From positions 62,001-126,000 of the forward strand of contig NZ_SBKQ01000007.1 of NCBI RefSeq assembly GCF_004122145.1: DNA of 64,000 nt. Direction: 5' to 3'. Shown here piece after piece: positions 49,749-61,190 of this stretch (positions are counted from its first letter, which is position 1; every line of letters starts with the position of its first letter). Made by a program: the position numbers and the translations under genes. Source of the DNA: Flavobacterium piscinae (GTDB lineage Bacteria > Bacteroidota > Bacteroidia > Flavobacteriales > Flavobacteriaceae). The notes beneath the pieces were generated by a model, which saw nothing but the letters and a program-made list of their open reading frames with translations, searched no databases and had not been told where the DNA came from.

Positions 49749-50054
49749 TTATATAAATTTTTCGATATTAAAAGTCGCCAAATGCACTTTAGATTTGGTT
49801 TCTAATTCTTGATTAAAAGCGAAAATTAATGCATATAATTTTTCTAAATTTTCAATTGGCACAAAAGCATAAAAAGCAATCGATTCATTTTCGTTTACTT
49901 CGCTGCCAAACCAATTGGAAGCTAATGCTTCTTCTGATACATCTTTAAATCCGGTTACGTTACGATACGAATAGGTTTTTACACCGGATTCTTTAAGCAA
50001 ATGCTGTATCTCTCTTTTGAAAGAATGGACAGCGGTTATAAGGACTAATTTCAT
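49749..50054 (-). CDS. PII/DUF3240-like small protein
   Basis: This 101-residue protein reads as a ferredoxin-like beta-alpha-beta fold similar in layout to PII or DUF3240 regulators: MKLVLITAVHSFKREIQHLLKES, a mobile loop (about 30-50), then AFYAFVPIENLEKLYALIFAFNQ. Related proteins often accompany RND metal-efflux pumps, and this one lies right after the pump gene on the same strand. No ligand residues can be named. Repeats flank it on both sides. Confidence 0.65.
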   Translation of the reverse strand: MKLVLITAVHSFKREIQHLLKESGVKTYSYRNVTGFKDVSEEALASNWFGSEVNENESIAFYAFVPIENLEKLYALIFAFNQELETKSKVHLATFNIEKFI

Positions 50055-50061
50055 TTTTTAT

Positions 50062-50157
50062 AAGGTTCTAAGGTTCTGAGGCACTAAGGTTCTGAGGTTT
50101 TACTAATTACTATTCACTATGGACTAAGGACTAATCACTAAGGACTAATCACTATCC
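50062..50157. repeat. Tandem AAGGTTCT and GGACTAATCACTA arrays at end of RND gene
   Basis: AGGTTCTA/AGGTTCTG units (50062-50100) are followed by GGACTAA/TCACTA units (50121-50157). The second array overlaps the last codons and stop of the RND permease at 50145. Confidence 0.8.
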
Positions 50158-53100
50158 TTCTCCCATTTCTTCCGTTCAGTGATGTAATAAATTAAGGGTA
50201 CTACAATTAAAGTTAAGAGTGTCGATACAATCGCTCCCGCCACTAGCGAAATCGCTAATCCTTGGAAAATCGGGTCAAACAGAATAATTGAGGCTCCAAT
50301 GACTACGGCTCCGGTGGTTAACAAAATAGGCGTGGTTCGCACCGCTCCGGCTTCGATTATGGCTTGTTTGATTTCGATACCGTCATTTAACCTGATTTCT
50401 ATAAAGTCGATTAAGAGAACCGAGTTCCGAACCATCACCCCGGCCAAAGCAATCATACCGATGAAAGATGTAGCTGTAAAAAATGCTCCTAACAACCAGT
50501 GACCTAAAACAATTCCCACCAAGGAAAGTGGAATGGCCACCATCATCACAATGGGGGTTTTAAAGTTTTGGAACCATCCCACAATCAACATATAGATAAT
50601 GATGATGACTACTAAAAAGGCAGCCCCTAAATCACGGAAAACTTCTAATGTAATTTGCCATTCTCCATCCCATTTTACGGTAAAATCATTTTCATCTGTG
50701 GGCTGTTCCATATACAATTCATTTACTTTGTAGCCTTTGGGAAGTTGCATTTTTTCCAATTTTTCATTCATCCCTAAAATAGCATACACCGGACTCTCCA
50801 AAGCTCCCGCCATATCGGCTAATACATATACCACTCGTTTTTGATCCTTACGGTAAATCGTATTTTGCAAGGTATCGGTTGTTACTTTAACCAAATCACT
50901 TACCGGAACCACATTGCCTCTACTTCCTTTAATTTTTACATTTTGAAGGTCTTCGATGGAGGTTTTATCTGCATCGTATAAGGATAAAGTAATTCCAACC
51001 GGATTGTTTGAACGTTCGTCATACAAATTGGAAACCGGCATTTCTCGTAACAAATACGTCAAATTACCCACCACTTGCTGTGGAGCGATTCCGTTTAACA
51101 TGGCTTTCTCTCGGTCAATTTCCAATTTGTATTCTACTTGAGGAGCCTCTACCATCCAATCGGTATCCACTACATCAGAAGTACTTTCCAAAATAGATTT
51201 CACTTGATTAGCCACTTTAATTTGTTCTTGATAATCGGGTCCGTAAACCTCCGCCACCAAAGTGGAAAGCACAGGAGGTCCTGGTGGAACTTCAACAATT
51301 TTTACATTAGCTCCATATTTTTTCGCAATTTTTTGAACTTCGGGACGAACTAATTTCGCTAAATCATGACTTTGTAAATCTCTGTCTTCTTTGTGTAATA
51401 AATTCAATTGAATATCGGCCATATTGCTTCCGCCACGCATATCATAATGACGCACCAACCCATTGAAAGTTATGGGTGCAGAAGCACCTATATAATTTTG
51501 ATAATCCACCACTTCAGGAACCGTTGACAAATATTGAGCAATTTCTTTCGTAACTGCTGCCGTTCGTTCTAAAGTAGTTCCTTCCGGCATATCAATCACC
51601 ACTTGGAATTCATTTTTGTTGTCAAAAGGTAACATTTTTACGGCTACCGATTTGGTAAAAAACATGACTACTGACCCTATCAATAAAACAAGCGTTACTA
51701 AGAACATCGCATTTCGCTTTTTAGAATTGTCCAATAAGGGTTGTTCTATTTTTTTGTAAATTCTATAAATCCAAGATGTTTCTAGACCTTGTTCTTCTTT
51801 TTGTTCTTGTTCGTCTTTTTCATGCAATAAATGATAACCCAAATAAGGTGTCACCGTTAAAGCCACGAATAAAGATAAAAGCATTGCGATAGAAGCACCA
51901 ATCGGCATCGGACTCATGTATGGTCCCATCATTCCGGACACAAAAGCCATCGGAAGAATTGCCGCAATAACCGTAAATGTGGCCAAAATGGTTGGATTAC
52001 CTACTTCATTAATCGCATAAATCGCAGCTTGTTTAAAGGGCAATCGCTTCAATTTAAAATGTCGATGCATATTTTCGGCTATAATGATACTATCATCTAC
52101 CACAATTCCAACCACAAACACTAAAGCAAAAAGCGTGATTCGATTTAATGTATAGCCTAACAGATAATAGCTAAATAAGGTTAAGGCAAACGTCAATGGT
52201 ACAGAGAAGAAAACAACCAAACCACCTCTCCATCCCATGGCTAACATTACTAAAACCGTAACCGCAATGATGGCTACACCTAAATGTAATAACAACTCAC
52301 CTACTTTGTGCGAAGCTGTTTCGCCATAATTTCGGGTTACTTCTACATGTACATCATCCGGAATAAGTGTTTTCTTTAATACTTCCACTTTATCCAAGAT
52401 TTTTTCGGCAATTTTCATCGCATCAGCCCCTTTTACTTTGGCAATTGAAATGGTTACTGCAGGGTACTCTGAATTATATGTTGTATATTTTTCATTGGCT
52501 TTTCCGTAGCCAAAAGAAACATAGTTTTTAGCTGTTTGCGGTCCATCTTGAATGGAAGCCACCTGTTTCAAATAAACCGGTAGATTGTTGTTCACCCCAA
52601 CCACTAAATTCTCAACATCCTCAGAAGTGGCTAAAAATTTTCCGGTGGTGACCAAATACTCTGTATCATTTTGTACAAAAGAACCCGATTGTGAACTCCC
52701 GTTATTGGCTTGAATCATTTGCATAATGCTTAGTGCATCCACTCCATTTTCCGCCATTTTATCTTTGTCTAAAACCACTTTCAATTCTCGGGTTCGTCCA
52801 CCAATTTCTTTGGTAATAGCCACATCTTTTACCTTTTCAATTTCAGAAGTTACTTCTTCTGCTAATTGTCGGATTTCAAAATCATCGTATTTTTCACTCC
52901 ACAATGTTAGTCCCAACATAGGAACATCATCAATCGAACGGGTTTTAACTACCGGTTGCATTACCCCTGTCGGGAACATATCTCGGTGTTTCATCAATTC
53001 ATCATATAATTTCACATACGAATCTTCACTGTTTTCACCTACATAAAATTGCACCACCATCATGGAGTAGCCATTCATCGCCATACTGTGAATATGCTCT

Positions 53101-53345
53101 ACCCCTTTGATGTTTCCGATTACTTTTTCTAACGGTTTCACCACTCTGCTTTCAATTTCAGACGGACTGGCTCCCGGATACATCACCATGACATCCGCCA
53201 TGGGAACATTAATTTGTGGTTCTTCCTCTCGTGGAATTAAAAACGAACTATATGTACCAATAATCATCAACGCTACCATTAATAAAATGGTTAGTTTGGA
53301 GTTGATAAAGAAATTGGCAATTTTACCTGATATACCTTCTTGCAT
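50145..53345 (-). CDS. RND efflux permease (AcrB/CusA-like)
   Basis: The 1066-residue inner-membrane pump has the RND pattern: first helix near residue 20, large periplasmic loop, membrane helices with ALVFVVGIVVDDSIIIAENMHRH (proton-relay Asp pair), a second loop, and GMIALAGVMVRNSVLLIDFIE. The PREEEPQINVPMADVMV start is shared with a flavobacterial group of multidrug or metal pumps; substrate is undetermined. I chose ATG 53345 over 53369. It lies 78 bases after the adaptor gene, within the efflux operon. Confidence 0.93.
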   Translation of the reverse strand: MQEGISGKIANFFINSKLTILLMVALMIIGTYSSFLIPREEEPQINVPMADVMVMYPGASPSEIESRVVKPLEKVIGNIKGVEHIHSMAMNGYSMMVVQFYVGENSEDSYVKLYDELMKHRDMFPTGVMQPVVKTRSIDDVPMLGLTLWSEKYDDFEIRQLAEEVTSEIEKVKDVAITKEIGGRTRELKVVLDKDKMAENGVDALSIMQMIQANNGSSQSGSFVQNDTEYLVTTGKFLATSEDVENLVVGVNNNLPVYLKQVASIQDGPQTAKNYVSFGYGKANEKYTTYNSEYPAVTISIAKVKGADAMKIAEKILDKVEVLKKTLIPDDVHVEVTRNYGETASHKVGELLLHLGVAIIAVTVLVMLAMGWRGGLVVFFSVPLTFALTLFSYYLLGYTLNRITLFALVFVVGIVVDDSIIIAENMHRHFKLKRLPFKQAAIYAINEVGNPTILATFTVIAAILPMAFVSGMMGPYMSPMPIGASIAMLLSLFVALTVTPYLGYHLLHEKDEQEQKEEQGLETSWIYRIYKKIEQPLLDNSKKRNAMFLVTLVLLIGSVVMFFTKSVAVKMLPFDNKNEFQVVIDMPEGTTLERTAAVTKEIAQYLSTVPEVVDYQNYIGASAPITFNGLVRHYDMRGGSNMADIQLNLLHKEDRDLQSHDLAKLVRPEVQKIAKKYGANVKIVEVPPGPPVLSTLVAEVYGPDYQEQIKVANQVKSILESTSDVVDTDWMVEAPQVEYKLEIDREKAMLNGIAPQQVVGNLTYLLREMPVSNLYDERSNNPVGITLSLYDADKTSIEDLQNVKIKGSRGNVVPVSDLVKVTTDTLQNTIYRKDQKRVVYVLADMAGALESPVYAILGMNEKLEKMQLPKGYKVNELYMEQPTDENDFTVKWDGEWQITLEVFRDLGAAFLVVIIIIYMLIVGWFQNFKTPIVMMVAIPLSLVGIVLGHWLLGAFFTATSFIGMIALAGVMVRNSVLLIDFIEIRLNDGIEIKQAIIEAGAVRTTPILLTTGAVVIGASIILFDPIFQGLAISLVAGAIVSTLLTLIVVPLIYYITERKKWEKDSD

Positions 53346-53423
53346 AATATTTTTTGTTTGAAGTTTCAAGTTTAAGGTTTCAAGTTTTTTAACTTAAAAC
53401 GAAGACCGAAAACTGTTTACTAT

Positions 53424-54503
53424 TTATTGAACACTCACTTTTGCTCCGTTGAACAATTTACCTTCTGCTGAAACGATATACGGTTCTTTGGAAGATAAGC
53501 CTGAAAGAACTTCTACTTTATCACCATACTCTTTTCCGACGCGTAACCATCTCAAAATGGCAACGTTTCCACTTCCAACGGTATAAATACCGGTGAGCTG
53601 ACCTTGTTTCACTAATGCCGAAGTTGGGACTATCACTTGTTCTGAAACAGTTGTATTTGTATCTTTTTCAATTGGAAATTGTACGTTAACAAACATTCCG
53701 GAAAGAATGGTTTTATCTGTAGCATCTAAATTGACTTTTACTAAATATTGCCCGCCTGTGTTTTTGGATGACAAACTCACTTCCGATACTTTTCCGGGTA
53801 CTTTTTTATTCATAGATTTAATGATAACCGAAACTGCCATTCCTTGTTTGATTTTAGCAATATCGCTTTCAGAAACCATCGCGGTTACTTGCAATTTTCC
53901 TGAACCTTCTACACTCACCAAAGGCATTCCCGGATTGGCCATGTCGCCTTCTTTGATAAACGTATTAGTCACCACTCCACTAAACGGAGCTGTAATGTTG
54001 GCGTAATTAAATTGAGCCATCACTTCGTTTCGCATTTGCTTTGCCCCTTCCAATCCGGCTTTGGCCATTTCAAAACGAGCGGTCATGTCGTCCAATTCTT
54101 TTTGCGAAGCACTTTGTTGAGCAAACAAGTTTACAAAACGATCGTAATCTTTTTTGGCATTGTTATAACCGGCAGTTGCTTGAAGAATCGCAGCATCTAC
54201 TTGTGCTTTTTTGGCTTGTAAATCGGTGTTGTTGATACTTACTAATAATTGACCTGCTCCGACTTTTTGACCGACTTTTACATGCATTTTTGTAACGTAA
54301 CCCATCATTCGTGTACTTACATTGGCACTGTTTTCAGCTTCGATTTTACCACTTGCCGTTACAAAAGGATTGGTTGAATTTTCGATTGAACCATTTACTT
54401 TTACAGAAATGGGTGGTAATTCTTTGGTTTCTTTTCTATCGCTTCCACAGGAAAATAAAAGAATTGCAGAAAAAATAATTAGGGATGTTATTTTGATTTT
54501 CAT
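53424..54503 (-). CDS. RND periplasmic adaptor (membrane fusion) lipoprotein
   Basis: This 359-residue protein has a lipobox (LLFSC, Cys near 19), a barrel-sandwich domain with GYVTKMHVKVGQKVGAGQLL, a coiled-coil hairpin (about 95-150) and a beta-barrel with GSGKLQVTAMVSES and TSALVKQGQ. It links the RND pump with TolC. It is in the middle of the TolC-adaptor-RND run. Confidence 0.94.
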   Translation of the reverse strand: MKIKITSLIIFSAILLFSCGSDRKETKELPPISVKVNGSIENSTNPFVTASGKIEAENSANVSTRMMGYVTKMHVKVGQKVGAGQLLVSINNTDLQAKKAQVDAAILQATAGYNNAKKDYDRFVNLFAQQSASQKELDDMTARFEMAKAGLEGAKQMRNEVMAQFNYANITAPFSGVVTNTFIKEGDMANPGMPLVSVEGSGKLQVTAMVSESDIAKIKQGMAVSVIIKSMNKKVPGKVSEVSLSSKNTGGQYLVKVNLDATDKTILSGMFVNVQFPIEKDTNTTVSEQVIVPTSALVKQGQLTGIYTVGSGNVAILRWLRVGKEYGDKVEVLSGLSSKEPYIVSAEGKLFNGAKVSVQ

Positions 54504-54605: not shown

Positions 54606-55919
54606 TTATTTTGTTAAAAATTCCAAATACATTTTGGTGAAGTTGTATTCAAAAACCGCCTGTAAGTATTCCAATTCTTTTTGAGCCGTTTGTGTTTCCG
54701 TCATCAATAAATCAGACGTTTTTTCTAATCCTTGTACGAAACGATTTTGACGGATTCTAAAACTTTCCTGAGTTTGTTCAAAAGCCAATTTCGATAGAGC
54801 TACTTTATTTTGAGCATCGGCCAATTGACGGTTGGTTTTGTTCAATTCCAACTGACTTTGCTTTTTGTATTGTTCGGCCTCCGTTTCCGCTTTTTGGAGT
54901 TCTACTTTTGATTTTTCATATTTTCCGATGGATTTATATCCGTCAAAAAGATTCCAAGACAATTGAGCTCCGATGGTGTAACCGTTTGCTCCAAATTGAA
55001 AAATTTCGGTATCGTATAATTCATAAGTTCCAAAAGCATTTAATCTGGGTAAAAAACTCATTTTACCGGATTTCATCATATTCTTATACGCTTCGGTTGA
55101 TTTATCCATCGCTAAAAAATCTTTTCTCGAAGTAGACAATTGAGCGATTTCCAAAGCAGGATTGATTTCATTTTCTAAATTTTCAACCGGTTTATAAATG
55201 CCACCCTTTGTATCTTCATTCAATAGAAAAGCTAAATAATCGGAGGCGTTTCGCACATTACTTTTGGCATACGAAAGTTGATTGGTAATTTCATTAACCC
55301 GAACTTGTACATCCAATACATCGGTTTTTTGTAACATGCCTTGTTTGAAATAATTGTTGACCAAATTAAGATTGGCTTGTGCGGTAGTATTGGCTTTTTC
55401 CAAAACACCAACTGCTTTATACGCCAATTGCAATTGCATGAACGCTTTGTTTACTTCCAATTCTAAATATTCTTTGGTGCGTTCGGTTTGCAATTGATAG
55501 GCTTCCATTTTGGATTTGGCTGCTTTTCGTTCAAACAAACCATCAGCATTTAAAATGGGTTGAAGTACTTCAATTCGAGTTGCATAATTTTGCACTTGAG
55601 ACGGATCATTCAACAACGCCGGATTAAAATCAGCTTGCGTTAAAATTTCCTGATTCAATTTTGAACCAAAGGCCATTAACGGATTGGTTGTCGTAATAGC
55701 CGTATGAGAAGCTGAAATATTCGGCAAAAAAAGAGCATTGGATTGGCGGTAATCTGAACGAGCCGACTCAACATTTTGTTTGGAAATTTTCAATTGAAGA
55801 TTTTGATCCGATAATTTTGTGGTCAAATCCGTTTTGGAAATTTGCAAGGTATCTTGACTGAATACAGCTGAAGAACAGACAAATATCCCAATTGCAATTG
55901 TATTTTTAATGGTTTTCAT
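54606..55919 (-). CDS. TolC-family outer membrane efflux protein
   Basis: The 437-residue protein has a signal peptide (ending AVFSQ) and two OEP repeats with long alternating Gln/Ala/Lys-rich helices (for example NVESARSDYRQSNALFLPN and ELNKTNRQLADAQNK). It forms the outer-membrane channel of the pump. It is first in the operon. Its promoter has a TACTTTTG box, no -33 element, and a Crp/Fnr-like operator at about -41.5. Confidence 0.93.
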   Translation of the reverse strand: MKTIKNTIAIGIFVCSSAVFSQDTLQISKTDLTTKLSDQNLQLKISKQNVESARSDYRQSNALFLPNISASHTAITTTNPLMAFGSKLNQEILTQADFNPALLNDPSQVQNYATRIEVLQPILNADGLFERKAAKSKMEAYQLQTERTKEYLELEVNKAFMQLQLAYKAVGVLEKANTTAQANLNLVNNYFKQGMLQKTDVLDVQVRVNEITNQLSYAKSNVRNASDYLAFLLNEDTKGGIYKPVENLENEINPALEIAQLSTSRKDFLAMDKSTEAYKNMMKSGKMSFLPRLNAFGTYELYDTEIFQFGANGYTIGAQLSWNLFDGYKSIGKYEKSKVELQKAETEAEQYKKQSQLELNKTNRQLADAQNKVALSKLAFEQTQESFRIRQNRFVQGLEKTSDLLMTETQTAQKELEYLQAVFEYNFTKMYLEFLTK

Positions 55920-55943
55920 TCGATTTACTTCTTAATTACAAGG

Positions 55944-55951
55944 CAAAAGTA
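55944..55951 (-). promoter_or_regulatory. -7 box of the TolC-adaptor-RND operon
   Basis: On the minus strand TACTTTTG matches TAnnTTTG and predicts a start near 55939. No TTTG lies 17-23 bases upstream, consistent with activator-dependent use of the operator at 55974-55987. Confidence 0.65.
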
Positions 55952-55973
55952 GAACGATGAAAAGAGGTGTGCA

Positions 55974-55987
55974 GTAACATTTGTTAC
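55974..55987. promoter_or_regulatory. GTAAC-N4-GTTAC Crp/Fnr-like operator, shared by divergent operons
   Basis: The perfect palindrome GTAACATTTGTTAC is centred at 55980.5. That is exactly 36.5 bases from the last base of the minus-strand -7 box (55944) and from the last base of a plus-strand TAAATTTG box (56017). A start five bases further on puts the site at -41.5 for both operons, the class II activator position. Confidence 0.6.
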
Positions 55988-56009
55988 CAATAGGAAAATT
56001 ACACCCATA

Positions 56010-56017
56010 TAAATTTG
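56010..56017 (+). promoter_or_regulatory. Operator-linked -7 box P1 of the MbnP/MbnH cluster
   Basis: TAAATTTG fits TAnnTTTG, with its final G 36.5 bases from the operator centre. No -33 TTG is at the usual distance. A start near 56022 would leave a leader of some 43 bases before the GTG at 56065. Confidence 0.5.
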
Positions 56018-56028
56018 TGAATAATTTC

Positions 56029-56060
56029 TTTTGTTAGAAGATTTAATACTTATACTTTTG
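56029..56060 (+). promoter_or_regulatory. Consensus promoter P2 (TTTTG-N19-TACTTTTG), leaderless
   Basis: TTTTG at 56029-56033 and TACTTTTG at 56053-56060 are 19 bases apart, an excellent match to the Flavobacterium consensus. Transcription would start about 56065, right at the GTG start codon of the following gene. Confidence 0.7.
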
Positions 56061-56064
56061 CAGT

Positions 56065-56433
56065 GTGAAAAATCTGTATTTCATATTGGCCCTTTTTCTT
56101 TTTGTAAAACCTATAATTCCTGTTTTTGAATATATAGTGAATTATGATTTTATAGTGAAAGAATTGTGTGAAAACAAAGCAAAACCGGAATTGGCTTGTA
56201 ACGGGAAATGTCATTTAATGAAAGAATTGGCCAAAGCAAATGACAGCGACAATCCCTTATCAACAGATAAAAAAGAAACAAGCAAACAGCCAATTGAAGT
56301 ATTATTTTTAGAAAAATTCCCAGTTGATTTTCAACTTTTTAGTTTTAAAGAAATAAAAAAGTTTAATTCTTTTTATTCCAATCTTTACCAAAACACTACT
56401 ACTTTTTCTACTTTCCACCCACCCACTGTGTAA
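56065..56433 (+). CDS. Small Cys/His exported protein of the MbnP cluster
   Basis: The 122-residue protein starts at GTG 56065 with one hydrophobic N-terminal segment (about 3-20). A Cys-rich motif follows near residues 33-51: CENKAKPELACNGKCHLMKEL, three cysteines and a histidine, which could bind a metal. The rest is Ser/Lys-rich with an aromatic C-terminus ending FHPP. I do not recognise the family by name. Small proteins of this kind, with a GKCHLxK motif, sit near metal-uptake genes in Bacteroidota, so a copper-related role is a guess. GTG is supported by the promoter position. Confidence 0.75.
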   Translation: MKNLYFILALFLFVKPIIPVFEYIVNYDFIVKELCENKAKPELACNGKCHLMKELAKANDSDNPLSTDKKETSKQPIEVLFLEKFPVDFQLFSFKEIKKFNSFYSNLYQNTTTFSTFHPPTV

Positions 56434-56523: not shown

Positions 56524-57306
56524 ATGAAATTTCAATTAAAAAATTTGGCTTTAGCCATCATGACTACTATTGCCTTAACTTCTTGTTCAAATGATGATGA
56601 CAATGCACCAATTTCCGGAGAAGGAAGCCTAAAACTAGAATTTGACAACGTTTATGGAGATGCAGATTTAATTTTCGGAACAGAATATACTAATTCAAAT
56701 GGCGAAAAAGTAAAACCAAATAATGCTATTTACATCGTAAGCAATATTGTTTTAACAAAAGAAGACGGCACAACTTATACTGTGCCAAAATCAGAAAGTT
56801 ACTTTTTTGTAAATGAAGCAGATGCGGCAAGTACAATTATAACATTACCTAATATTCCAGCAGCTAATTATACCAGTGTTAAATTTGGTATTGGTGTTGA
56901 CCAAGAACAATTCAATGCAGGAGCAGACGGTCAAGGGGACATGTGGACAACTGCTCAAGGTTTAGGAATGACATGGTCATGGGCAGCAGGATACAAATTC
57001 ATGAAATTTGAAGGGACTACAACAACAACTTCGCACACCGATGCTGTTTACAGAGTACATACCGGTAAAACAGGAGATGTTTACAATTATGCAGAAGTTA
57101 CGTTAAACATGCCTGAAAAAGCTTTAGTAAGAACGAATGTAACGCCACAAGTTCACATTATGGCTGACTTTAAAAAAGTAATTGACGGTACAACCAAAAT
57201 CAATTTTGAAGAAGGTCTTGATGTAATGGGAGGAACCAAAGTACAAAATATTATGGCGAATAATGTTCCAACCATGTTTGAAATTCACCACGTACACAAC
57301 GATTAA
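56524..57306 (+). CDS. MbnP-family periplasmic lipoprotein
   Basis: The 260-residue lipoprotein (LTSC, Cys near 21) matches the MbnP family: LEFDNVYGDADLIF start, NAIYIVSNIVLTKEDG, MTWSWAAGYKFMKFEG and a His-rich end (MFEIHHVHND). In methanotrophs MbnP is modified by the di-heme enzyme MbnH, which oxidises a Trp to kynurenine; the Trp-rich GMTWSWAAGYKF region is the candidate substrate here. It precedes an MbnH-like gene by about 120 bases. It is probably copper-related but no methanobactin genes are nearby. Confidence 0.9.
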   Translation: MKFQLKNLALAIMTTIALTSCSNDDDNAPISGEGSLKLEFDNVYGDADLIFGTEYTNSNGEKVKPNNAIYIVSNIVLTKEDGTTYTVPKSESYFFVNEADAASTIITLPNIPAANYTSVKFGIGVDQEQFNAGADGQGDMWTTAQGLGMTWSWAAGYKFMKFEGTTTTTSHTDAVYRVHTGKTGDVYNYAEVTLNMPEKALVRTNVTPQVHIMADFKKVIDGTTKINFEEGLDVMGGTKVQNIMANNVPTMFEIHHVHND

Positions 57307-57425: not shown

Positions 57426-58463
57426 ATGAGAAAAATATTCTCTTTATTAGTTGTTATAAGTTTCTTCAGTTGTCAAACCGATGACGATGCCGCTTATCAA
57501 AATATTCCGATTGACTTTCAAGTTCCGTCCAATTTTCCTCCTTTGGCTTATGATATGACAAATAATCCTTTAACCGAAAAAGGATTTGAGTTAGGAAAAA
57601 AAATATTTTACGACGGAAGACTCGCATCTGACGGTGTTGTTTCTTGTGGTTTTTGTCATATTCAAGAAGATGCTTTTACCCATCACGGACATACTTTTAG
57701 TCATGGTGTGGGTGACGGAGTGGGCACGCGAAATGCTCCTCCTATTCAAAATATGGCTTTTCAAACGCAATTTTTTTGGGATGGAGCATCAGACCATATA
57801 GAATTATTGTCAATGTCACCCATTTCAAATGAAGTGGAAATGAATGGAAACATTGTTAACATCATGAACATGATGAAAAATGATCCACAGTATAAAAAAT
57901 TATATAAACAAGCCTTTATCAACGGAGAAATTAATCCGGAAAACATGCTTAAAGCATTGGCTCAATTCATGACGATGCTAACCTCAACCAATTCTCGTTT
58001 CGACAAATATAGAAGAAACGAAACCGGAGGAACGCTTACACAGCAAGAGTTAGAAGGGTATGCGATTTTCAATCAAAAATGTGCAAGCTGTCATGCTACT
58101 GATATTTTTACAGATAACACTTTTCGAAACAATGGTTTACCCATCAATCCTCAAATTAATGATTTCGGACGTTACAGAGTTACAGAAAATCCTTCGCATA
58201 AATACCAATTCAAAGTACCAAGTTTACGCAATATTGAATTGACTGCTCCTTATATGCATGACGGTCGTTTTTATACGTTGGAGGCTGTGTTGAATCATTA
58301 TGCTCAAGGAGTAACTTCAACTGAAAATTTAGATCCCATTCTTAATAACAATGGTAGTTTGGGTATTCCGCTTAACTCAGATGAAAAAGCAAAAATCATT
58401 GCCTTTTTAAAAACGCTTACCGACCACGAATTTATTTCCAACCCTAAATTTGCAGAATTTTAA
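57426..58463 (+). CDS. MbnH-like di-heme cytochrome c peroxidase
   Basis: The 345-residue protein has a lipoprotein-like signal (FFSCQ, Cys near 17) and two c-type heme motifs, CGFCH (near 75) and CASCH (near 220), with later YMHDGRFYTLEAVLNHY. This is the bacterial di-heme peroxidase/MauG/MbnH superfamily. Next to an MbnP gene it is probably MbnH, oxidising its partner's Trp rather than detoxifying peroxide. It lies in the periplasm and is two bases before the next gene. Confidence 0.9.
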   Translation: MRKIFSLLVVISFFSCQTDDDAAYQNIPIDFQVPSNFPPLAYDMTNNPLTEKGFELGKKIFYDGRLASDGVVSCGFCHIQEDAFTHHGHTFSHGVGDGVGTRNAPPIQNMAFQTQFFWDGASDHIELLSMSPISNEVEMNGNIVNIMNMMKNDPQYKKLYKQAFINGEINPENMLKALAQFMTMLTSTNSRFDKYRRNETGGTLTQQELEGYAIFNQKCASCHATDIFTDNTFRNNGLPINPQINDFGRYRVTENPSHKYQFKVPSLRNIELTAPYMHDGRFYTLEAVLNHYAQGVTSTENLDPILNNNGSLGIPLNSDEKAKIIAFLKTLTDHEFISNPKFAEF

Positions 58464-58465
58464 AG

Positions 58466-59434
58466 ATGAAAAAGTATCTATCTTACCTTTTAGTTTTAGT
58501 GTTTTTTTCAATTCATGCAACAGAAAAGGACAGTTTATCTCTTTTCAAAAAATATGATTTTTCGAATAGAGTCGGTATTTTTGAAGAAGAAGAAGATTGC
58601 GATGCCTGTGGGTGTTCAGCCAGTGGCGGAAGTATGGGATTTGCCTCTATGTTAACGACCAATTTCATCGGAATTCGTTATTTTAATCAATCGTATAAAA
58701 GCACAGATGGTTTATATAGCAATTCGCCATGGTACGATGAAAATTTCAATACCATACAAGTTTGGGGTAGAATTCCAATCGTTAAAAATGTGCAGGCAAC
58801 TGTTCTTTTGCCTTATCACTTTCACAACAGAGAAAGTAACAACGGTAAACAAAACATCAGTGGAATTGGCGATATTACACTTTTGGGGATGTATCAAATT
58901 GTACAAACCAAATCAGACAGTTTGTTTTTCAAACATACTTTACAACTCGGTGGTGGAGTAAAAATGCCAACCGGAAAATTTGACGAAACCAACAACGGCA
59001 GCGTCAACCCAAGTTATCAAGTAGGAACCGGCAGTTGGGATTATCTTTTAGCGACAGAATATATCATCAGAAGAAAAAATTGGGGTTTAAACAACATGGT
59101 AAACTACGTCATTAAAACCGAAAATGATAAGTCCTACCGTTTTGGAAACCAATTTAATTATGCTTCTACGCTATTTTATTTAGTAGAAAAAAATCATTTT
59201 TCATATGCACCTCAGCTTGGAATTGCCGGTGAACTGTATGAAGATAATTATCAACGAGGTCAAAAAGTGAGGGGCACAGCCGGTGATATCTTTTTGGGGA
59301 AATTGGGAATTGAGATAGGAAAAAACAACTTCTCCTTTGGAGCCAATTATATGATTCCTATTCAACAAAATCTAACCGGAGGAAATGTGGAAGCCAATTA
59401 TCGATGGAGTTTGAATTTGAATTATATGTTGTAA
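58466..59434 (+). CDS. MbnP/MbnH-associated beta-barrel protein with CDACGC motif
   Basis: The 322-residue protein has a signal peptide (ending IHAT), then an acidic stretch with a Cys cluster CDACGCSASGG (about 48-58), and then alternating beta strands rich in Asn/Tyr/Phe that end in an aromatic LNLNYML, typical of an outer-membrane barrel. The Cys cluster could bind copper. It lies two bases after the MbnH-like gene, closing the four-gene cluster. The family is unnamed to me; transport of a metal or metallophore is inference. Confidence 0.8.
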   Translation: MKKYLSYLLVLVFFSIHATEKDSLSLFKKYDFSNRVGIFEEEEDCDACGCSASGGSMGFASMLTTNFIGIRYFNQSYKSTDGLYSNSPWYDENFNTIQVWGRIPIVKNVQATVLLPYHFHNRESNNGKQNISGIGDITLLGMYQIVQTKSDSLFFKHTLQLGGGVKMPTGKFDETNNGSVNPSYQVGTGSWDYLLATEYIIRRKNWGLNNMVNYVIKTENDKSYRFGNQFNYASTLFYLVEKNHFSYAPQLGIAGELYEDNYQRGQKVRGTAGDIFLGKLGIEIGKNNFSFGANYMIPIQQNLTGGNVEANYRWSLNLNYML

Positions 59435-59666: not shown

Positions 59667-61127
59667 TTATTCAGGAATTAACCACCAAAAAGGCTTCATT
59701 TTTGCTTTGTAAAGAAAGGCATAATGCAGCGAAAGTTTCACCCAATGACCAGCTAAACCAATGTCGCCAAATGTTTTTTTGATGTCACGACCGCCGGTCT
59801 CACCATATTTTTTATAATCAGGAACAATCGGATAAGTAGTTATACTGACACCACTACCTTGTGTGAGTCCATAACCGGCTGAGGCGATACAAGCCGCTCC
59901 CATATTTCCAAGTGAACCTTTATGATGCATCGATTCTTTACCCAATTTTATAGAATCGATAATATTGTCGGCTACCAATTTAGCAGTGATTCCGGAGGGC
60001 ATTCCGGTTCTGGGTGGAGACGGAAAAATTTCTGTTCCGTTTTTACTTTTTCTGGGTTTAGAAATGGAATGTGGCGGTGCAAAAGCAATTCCGGGTGCAA
60101 AAATGTTTTTATAACTTGGATTTTGATACGTTTCCGGCCAATCTTGAACTGACCAATCTTCGTATGGTTTTGATGTATAATCCGCATCAACAATCATAAA
60201 TCCTTTGAATAATTTTTCAGTTATATTTTGTCCGGTTTTATCATACGCCTGAAATCCATGACCGGAAAAAGCCGGAATTAACATCCCAAAATCAAACGTT
60301 TCTGTTTTAAATTCTCCGTCCAGATTTTCGTAATGTACTAATCCGTCTTCCACTTTATTTACAGCAGCTCCTAAAATCCATTTTATTCCACGGTCTTCAA
60401 AAATCATTTCAATCATATCTTTCGATTTCATGTTGAAACCGTTATATTCCATCAACATGCCGTCCATTCCAAAATCGCCTAATTCGTATTCGTTGGAAAT
60501 CCAAGTTATTTCAGCTTTATCCCGAACACCAAACTTCTGTAATTCTTTTTCAACATTTAGAATATATTCAAACGCTGCCCCTTGGCAAGTTGCTTTACCA
60601 TGACCTGTACCAATCAGAATTTTTACCTTTTTATCTGATTTTTTTATTTCATTAATCAATTGATGAAGAGCTTTCGAAGCATGGTCTGCATGATCATACG
60701 TACAAACCGAATACACTTTATTGGTTCCCGGATTCAATCCTTCGGTTAAATCAAAAGCTAATTTTGGACCGGTTGCATTGATTAAATAATCATAGGTTAC
60801 TTTTTCCTGTTTACCTAATTTTTCTCCAAAAACACCTTCAACTAAAATATAGGGATTTGTTTCTGAAGAATCTCCTTCCGGATGAAAGGAAACGGCTTTG
60901 GCTTGTTTGTAACCAATGCCTTTTCGTTTGTATAAAGGTTCAAGTGGAAAAATAACTTCTTTTGGTTTCATTCGTCCAATTCCCACCCAAATATTAGAAG
61001 GAACCCATTGATAATTTCGATTAGGAGAAACCACTAAAATCTCGTGTTCTTTGGATAATTTTCTACGTAAATGAGCTGCAGCCGTATGTCCGGCAATTCC
61101 TGCTCCTAAAACTAAAATTTTTGCCAT
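59667..61127 (-). CDS. FAD-dependent sulfide:quinone-reductase-like oxidoreductase
   Basis: The 486-residue protein begins with a Rossmann GAGIAGHTAAAHLRR, has the SQR-family YQWVPSNIWVGIGRM region, GTGHGKATCQGAAFEY and a C-terminal MGAACIASAGYG motif. Cysteines near 145, 180 and 415 could be the redox set used to oxidise sulfide. Such enzymes pass electrons to the quinone pool, fitting cytochrome bd next door. Sulfide as substrate is inferred from family. It has its own promoter and operator upstream. Confidence 0.87.
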   Translation of the reverse strand: MAKILVLGAGIAGHTAAAHLRRKLSKEHEILVVSPNRNYQWVPSNIWVGIGRMKPKEVIFPLEPLYKRKGIGYKQAKAVSFHPEGDSSETNPYILVEGVFGEKLGKQEKVTYDYLINATGPKLAFDLTEGLNPGTNKVYSVCTYDHADHASKALHQLINEIKKSDKKVKILIGTGHGKATCQGAAFEYILNVEKELQKFGVRDKAEITWISNEYELGDFGMDGMLMEYNGFNMKSKDMIEMIFEDRGIKWILGAAVNKVEDGLVHYENLDGEFKTETFDFGMLIPAFSGHGFQAYDKTGQNITEKLFKGFMIVDADYTSKPYEDWSVQDWPETYQNPSYKNIFAPGIAFAPPHSISKPRKSKNGTEIFPSPPRTGMPSGITAKLVADNIIDSIKLGKESMHHKGSLGNMGAACIASAGYGLTQGSGVSITTYPIVPDYKKYGETGGRDIKKTFGDIGLAGHWVKLSLHYAFLYKAKMKPFWWLIPE

Positions 61128-61146: not shown

Positions 61147-61190
61147 CGAAGTTAGATGGAATTAACAGAACAAAACGCAACAATTGTTAC
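61147..61190 (-). promoter_or_regulatory. Promoter and Crp/Fnr-like operator of the SQR-like gene
   Basis: On the minus strand GTAAC-AATT-GTTGC (61190-61177, centre 61183.5) precedes TTTTG (61175-61171) and TAACTTCG (61154-61147). The centre is again exactly 36.5 bases from the last base of the -7 box, which puts it at about -41.5 from a start near 61142. One half-site differs from GTTAC by one base. Confidence 0.55.

Follow-up and report, generated by a model that had tools for sequence, protein, structure and literature searches.

The gap between two divergent operons of Flavobacterium piscinae raises the question of whether a single palindromic operator governs both of them. The window, which is the whole 64,000-nucleotide stretch that was analysed, corresponds to G000:C59:62001-126000 of a 3.37-Mb draft genome. 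The operator GTAAC-ATTT-GTTAC (GTAACATTTGTTAC) is located at 55974-55987, belongs to neither strand in particular, is a putative dimer site of the Crp/Fnr family and is kept upstream of TolC orthologues. A sequence-only reading of the window had described a TAnnTTTG box at the same distance on either side. Both boxes were found, namely TACTTTTG on the minus strand (55951-55944), facing a TolC/RND efflux operon, and TAAATTTG on the plus strand (56010-56017), facing an MbnP/MbnH operon; the last G of each lies 36.5 bases from the operator centre at 55980.5. The further statement that neither box has a -33 TTG at consensus distance also held, as none was read at N17-23 upstream of either. In our judgement, it is likely that a Crp/Fnr activator at 55974-55987, for which the protein encoded at C8:8063-8692 is the best candidate, drives the pump together with sulfur detoxification, and probably the MbnP side too.

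The pump operon lies on the minus strand. It comprises genes for a TolC-family outer membrane protein (OEP; 54606-55919, Pfam PF02321), an RND periplasmic adaptor (53424-54503; TIGR01730, 198.9 bits against a cut-off of 94.9), an RND permease (50145-53369; PF00873, best solved relative 6vej) and a small protein (49749-50054) with a weak match to a PG0541-family transporter-associated model (NF045581, 17.9 bits, under the cut-off of 45). The permease contains a VVDDS motif, which we take to indicate that it is probably of the drug/hydrophobe type. The heavy-metal RND model (CusA/CzcA, TIGR00914) gave 242.2 bits, under its cut-off of 701.45; the multidrug model NF033617 scored higher, at 454.6 bits, and was likewise under its own cut-off of 1250. 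Metal efflux was judged less likely on the basis of the profile scores and the best solved relative. Of the two functions named earlier, metal or drug efflux, the drug/hydrophobe one was thus favoured and the metal one disfavoured, with no subfamily cut-off passed.

The promoter geometry was compared among TolC orthologues from 121 genomes of the genus, 299 genomes of the family and a number of named records. For the genus, 40 genomes contributed 41 upstream regions, with two fragments of the decayed TolC gene of G089 left out. In the family, matches occurred in 110 genomes besides that of the window, and 28 of 29 fetched loci were analysed; two loci were excluded, that of the window itself and L226, in which the contig starts with the gene. 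The named set contained 21 loci after exclusion of L204, which covers just the 3' end of the gene, and the closest pumps among these records came from Flavobacterium species and Flavobacterium/Flavobacteriales MAGs. We found that 39 of the 41 genus regions carry a palindrome with at most one mismatch whose centre lies exactly 36.5 bases from the end of the TAnnTTTG box; the TolC upstream region of G059 had the palindrome without the box. The palindrome was present in all 28 family loci, one of them with a mismatch, and TAnnTTTG occupied the 36.5 position in 27, with TATTTTTA in the remaining one. Across all sets, the tally for the exact spacing came to 88 of 90 orthologous regions (82 distinct sequences). 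It leaves out L219, which has a palindrome with one mismatch yet a box at 36.5; some genomes are possibly present in two of the sets, and since the genomes are related, the counts are not independent. In loci chosen around the pump, the regulator and palindromes, 60 palindrome-box pairs had the 36.5 spacing, whereas 19 had any other offset from 10 to 80. A TTG at N17-23 upstream of the box occurred in none of the 82 distinct sites, and two sites had a TTG at N16. The base five positions after the last G of the box, which is the predicted start, was A or G in 96% of the 82 sites. A conserved CATAA was also seen around the predicted start, at bases 47-51 from the start of the palindrome, with A as its last base in 97%.

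The position typical of class II activators is -41.5. An excerpt of PMC9723704 reports that TAnnTTTG spans -12 to -5 in F. psychrophilum. With this numbering, the operator centre falls at -41.5, and the -7 box TACTTTTG of the TolC/RND promoter (55944-55951, minus strand) has its predicted start at 55939. The conserved spacing of 36.5 and the lack of a -33 TTG in 82 of 82 sites strongly supported the class II placement that had been proposed for the TolC/RND operon. As sequence features, the operator and the class II geometry of the pump side are nearly certain.

The number of palindromes carried no such information. Genome-wide, forward matches of GYAACNNNNGTTRC numbered 19 and those of its reversal, used as a control, 21, and no excess was found; 10 of the 19 sites fall within long reading frames. 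The window contained four palindromes with at most one mismatch (one exact and three with one mismatch), compared with a mean of 1.24 in shuffled windows, of which five in 100 reached four. Since the control was equally high, the palindrome count was discarded as evidence. The palindrome alone therefore proves nothing, and it is its placement that carries weight.

Five proteins of this genome matched the Crp HTH model. Only the one at G000:C8:8063-8692 has a Val helix, TSRVVVSR, and the helices of the four others read TESCIR, TRQTIV, SREVITR and RVETVI. The C8 protein belongs to the Crp/Fnr superfamily (PF13545, 34 bits, cut-off 27; PF00027, 29.3 bits, cut-off 27.5), and solved Crp structures were found among its relatives with a best E value of 2.3e-12. 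Of the 40 genomes of the genus that have the pump, 22 paired a Val helix with GTAAC and 18 paired a Glu helix with GTGAC, with no mismatched case. In 28 genomes of other genera, both GTAAC and a Val-helix regulator were present in 28 of 28, and one genome had a second copy with Ile. The helix residue (Val or Glu) thus agreed with operator base 3 (A or G) in 68 of 68 genomes, as tallied on the best-matching regulator of each. Fisher's test on the Val/Glu and A/G table gave a p value of 8e-17, which ignores the kinship of the genomes. Given that the relatives also have more distant Crp/Fnr copies (at least five) and that this genome has a Glu-helix copy at C5, the rule holds for the best match only. 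This Glu-helix Crp/Fnr protein (L023) lies at G000:C5:75124-75300, and it would suit a GTGAC-N4-GTCAC site (L161, G000:C43:105452) whose class II position is occupied by TAACTTTG. The regulator of G092, which is 78% identical to the C8 protein and has Glu, was set aside as independent proof of the code because that genome also carries a second Glu-type regulator. A link between residue and operator has been described for Crp/Fnr proteins including HcpR, as given in an excerpt of PMC1274295. The residue-to-base match supported the suggestion that Crp/Fnr-family proteins would bind sites of this kind, and it makes the C8 protein a strong choice as the best candidate activator of the operator.

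The gene neighbourhood of this candidate was rich in sulfur genes. Its neighbours encode a TauE protein (PF01925), a YeiH-type protein (TIGR00698 below cut-off, PF03601 above), an SQR-like flavoprotein, two persulfide-dioxygenase-like proteins that combine an MBL fold with rhodanese domains, a separate rhodanese and a thioredoxin-like protein. As SQR and persulfide dioxygenase are named here from weak sub-cut-off model matches and from domain make-up, we use SQR-like and persulfide-dioxygenase-like as presumed descriptions. Sulfur genes were found near 76 of 86 regulator loci; within 1.5-kb flanks, they occurred in 49 of 58 regulator loci and in none of 29 MbnP control loci. In this genome, a full box occupies the class II position at operators that precede TolC, a rhodanese gene (reading frame start 159 bases past the box), a CXXCH protein gene (Haem_bd, 25.5 bits, slightly under cut-off) and a 491-aa gene that appears kelch-like by eye, and likewise at a site with GTGAC halves that precedes a 518-aa gene. 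The near-boxes TAATTTTA, TAGTTTTA and TAACTTCG lie exactly at the class II position before an MBL-rhodanese gene and two SQR-like genes, the latter being the one beside the C8 regulator and that at 59667-61127. The operator of the last gene is the second in the window (GTAACAATTGTTGC, 61177-61190, minus strand), and TAACTTCG is its class II near-box. At C60:7371, TACTTTTG is displaced by one base from the class II position; at C6:25624, there is a near-box only; and the non-coding palindromes at C2:3940 and C60:165364 have no box at that position. Judged from this gene company, a sulfide or reactive-sulfur signal for the regulator is likely. All 91 aligned regulator sequences have Cys77, and 89 of them have Cys83 (own sequence counted twice).

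These results suggested a mechanism for the pump side. Most probably, the regulator senses a reactive sulfur species via its cysteines and then binds 55974-55987. Bound at -41.5, it would stand in for the missing -33 element and recruit RNA polymerase to the TolC-adaptor-RND promoter, so that the pump would be switched on jointly with sulfide/reactive-sulfur detoxification.

On the opposite side of the operator, the plus strand carries four genes. The first (56065-56433) encodes a 122-aa CNGKCHL protein without a family match, which has a GTG start and is predicted to be leaderless. It is followed by genes for an MbnP-family protein (56524-57306; PF20243, 155.5 bits; TIGR04052, 41.5 bits, under the cut-off of 140), an MbnH-like di-haem peroxidase (57426-58463; PF03150; TIGR04039, 223.5 bits, under the cut-off of 362.85) and a recurrent CDACGCSASGG protein without a family match (58466-59434), which by eye is possibly an outer-membrane barrel. 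The MbnP/MbnH pair was recognized by PF20243 and PF03150 in neighbouring genes, and both NCBIfam cut-offs were missed. The order of CNGKC protein, MbnP, MbnH-like protein and CDACGC protein was seen in most of 30 comparison loci, the best 30 of 75 matching genomes. In close relatives including F. orientale, the place of the MbnP operon beyond the operator is taken by a methyltransferase-like gene. Its counterpart in this genome is found about 8 kb further, past the MbnP, SQR-like, cydAB and thioredoxin-like genes, and the intervening stretch, comprising the MbnP operon, the SQR-like gene, cydAB and the thioredoxin-like gene, runs from 55994 to about 64200. The displaced counterpart suggests that a rearrangement brought the MbnP-side genes next to the operator; it seems to be lineage-specific, with a break about 6 bases beyond the operator.

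Whether the operator also acts in this direction was weighed against the reading that it serves the pump only, with TAAATTTG a chance or passive element and the MbnP operon driven solely by its own promoter. Such a promoter, P2, which was absent from the sequence-only reading, was identified at 56031-56060 on the plus strand as TTG-N19-TACTTTTG-N4-GTG, with the box at 56053-56060. As the box ends 4 bases before the GTG, the transcript should be leaderless; an excerpt of PMC9723704 gives leaderless transcripts as 5.5% of the mRNAs examined in F. psychrophilum. The pump-only reading is favoured by the conservation of this distance, since TAnnTTTG ends exactly 4 bases before the first-gene GTG in 20 of the best 30 of 75 loci, window included. 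A TTG at N16-23 accompanies the P2-type box in seven of those 20, with N19 in the window. It is also favoured by the other 29 of these loci, in which the 400 bases preceding the assigned start contained no palindrome at fewer than two mismatches; the assigned start codon is off in some loci (the box count used re-set starts). P1, the candidate box for class II activation of the MbnP operon (TAAATTTG, 56010-56017, plus strand, spacing 36.5), has its predicted start at about 56022, and this base is T rather than a purine. A P1-type facing box was restricted to the window and two MAGs (L184 and L202) that share the arrangement, and it marks the edge of a longer block of conservation that extends past it, both of which again suit a pump-only operator. 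Against that reading, the frequency of the box on the P1 strand was about 0.0016 per position in 88 regions, the clade's own included, which is the chance of a box at the exact position. In the three-way alignment, moreover, operator and TAAATTTG box were identical and the 22-base length of the spacer was kept, though only 8 of its 22 columns were conserved and 14 varied; on the pump side, 21 of 22 were conserved. A box and a length kept across a varied spacer favour a real second class II promoter, but they represent one evolutionary event. We therefore consider the pump-only reading a real possibility that stays clearly below an even chance, and use of the operator in both directions somewhat more probable than its opposite. 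The expectation that palindrome and spacing would be kept in relatives was borne out on the pump side and, for the MbnP side, in the two relatives that were found to share the arrangement. The proposed class II site for the MbnP/MbnH cluster is likewise plausible and was an incomplete account, given the operon's own leaderless-type P2 and a facing box confined to one small clade. In two-way use, the rearrangement would have placed the MbnP operon on the far side of the operator in the window genome and the two relatives, and TAAATTTG at equal distance would probably let the operator act that way, adding an inducible start to the leaderless P2. The predicted starts of the two facing promoters are 83 bases apart, so two polymerases would exclude each other.

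Two further readings concern the protein itself. It could be a repressor of one or both promoters that covers the -35 region, since a site at -41.5 overlaps the position of the -33 element; yet there is no TTG at N17-23 to block in any of the 82 sites, and such promoters would presumably be weak without an activator, and we regard repression as very improbable. The operator could instead belong to a NO-responsive regulator of the HcpR type, a candidate named by the sequence-only reading. In an excerpt of PMC1274295, the HcpR2 motif of Bacteroides, Clostridium and others is GTAACnnnnGTTAC, a consensus that the operator here also matches, and HcpR2 has Pro at the position of CRP Glu181. HcpR2 and the C8 regulator share, on that description, membership of the Crp/Fnr family and a specificity residue adjoining the conserved Arg of the recognition helix, but the C8 regulator has Val where HcpR2 has Pro, and its putative targets are sulfur and efflux genes, not hcp. 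No match to hcp (PF03063) was found in this genome, which is 99.99% complete, whereas matches occurred in 5 of 14 control genomes. The regulator and its targets sit among sulfur genes, and the C8 regulator has a conserved Cys pair, whereas an excerpt of PMC12750200 presents HcpR as a NO sensor that depends on haem. The motif thus fits, but HcpR as the regulator was rejected on the absent hcp match and the helix residue, and an operator of the HcpR type in general appears improbable.

A broader form of the preferred activator reading is that a branch of Crp/Fnr regulators with a conserved CX5C pair in the sensor domain, spread over many genera of this bacterial family, acts as a reactive-sulfur sensor coupling sulfide detoxification to an RND pump via class II promoters of constant spacing, with a two-way switch in one clade that arose by rearrangement, has divergent promoters at -41.5 on either side and recruits MbnP/MbnH; we offer this tentatively, as not far short of an even chance. 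The analysis supplies a testable regulator, an operator code and a target list for one response, and suggests that the RND pump is part of a sulfide/reactive-sulfur defence. The match of Val/Glu with A/G makes a residue swap a simple test of the code. The MbnP side is a traceable case in which an operon may have gained an inducible promoter via rearrangement; if true, a copper/redox operon, MbnP/MbnH, was recruited into a sulfur response in one clade. A literature search of partial coverage, judged superficially, yielded no description of this response in this group.

In class II CRP/FNR promoters of E. coli, the site is centred at -41.5 and replaces the -35 element. Unlike these, the promoters here have the Bacteroidota -7 box TAnnTTTG, and one clade has the equal distance on both sides. 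The known sulfide regulators FisR, SqrR and CstR control SQR/persulfide-dioxygenase genes and belong to other protein families, whereas the candidate here is a Crp/Fnr protein whose putative targets include an RND pump and share a class II architecture that is conserved at the pump. Sulfane sulfur has been tied to multidrug-resistance regulators such as MexR, according to an excerpt of PMC9495516; MexR is of the MarR family, often repressors, in contrast to the candidate Crp/Fnr activator here. A decayed TolC orthologue with several stops was observed at G089:C1:34182-34800, in a genome that retains the regulator. Several relatives (L095, L096, L105, L160, L097-L099, L101, L102 and L201) carry a second palindrome upstream of the first, at a distance of 17 or 22 bases, and these doubled palindromes perhaps reflect cooperative binding.
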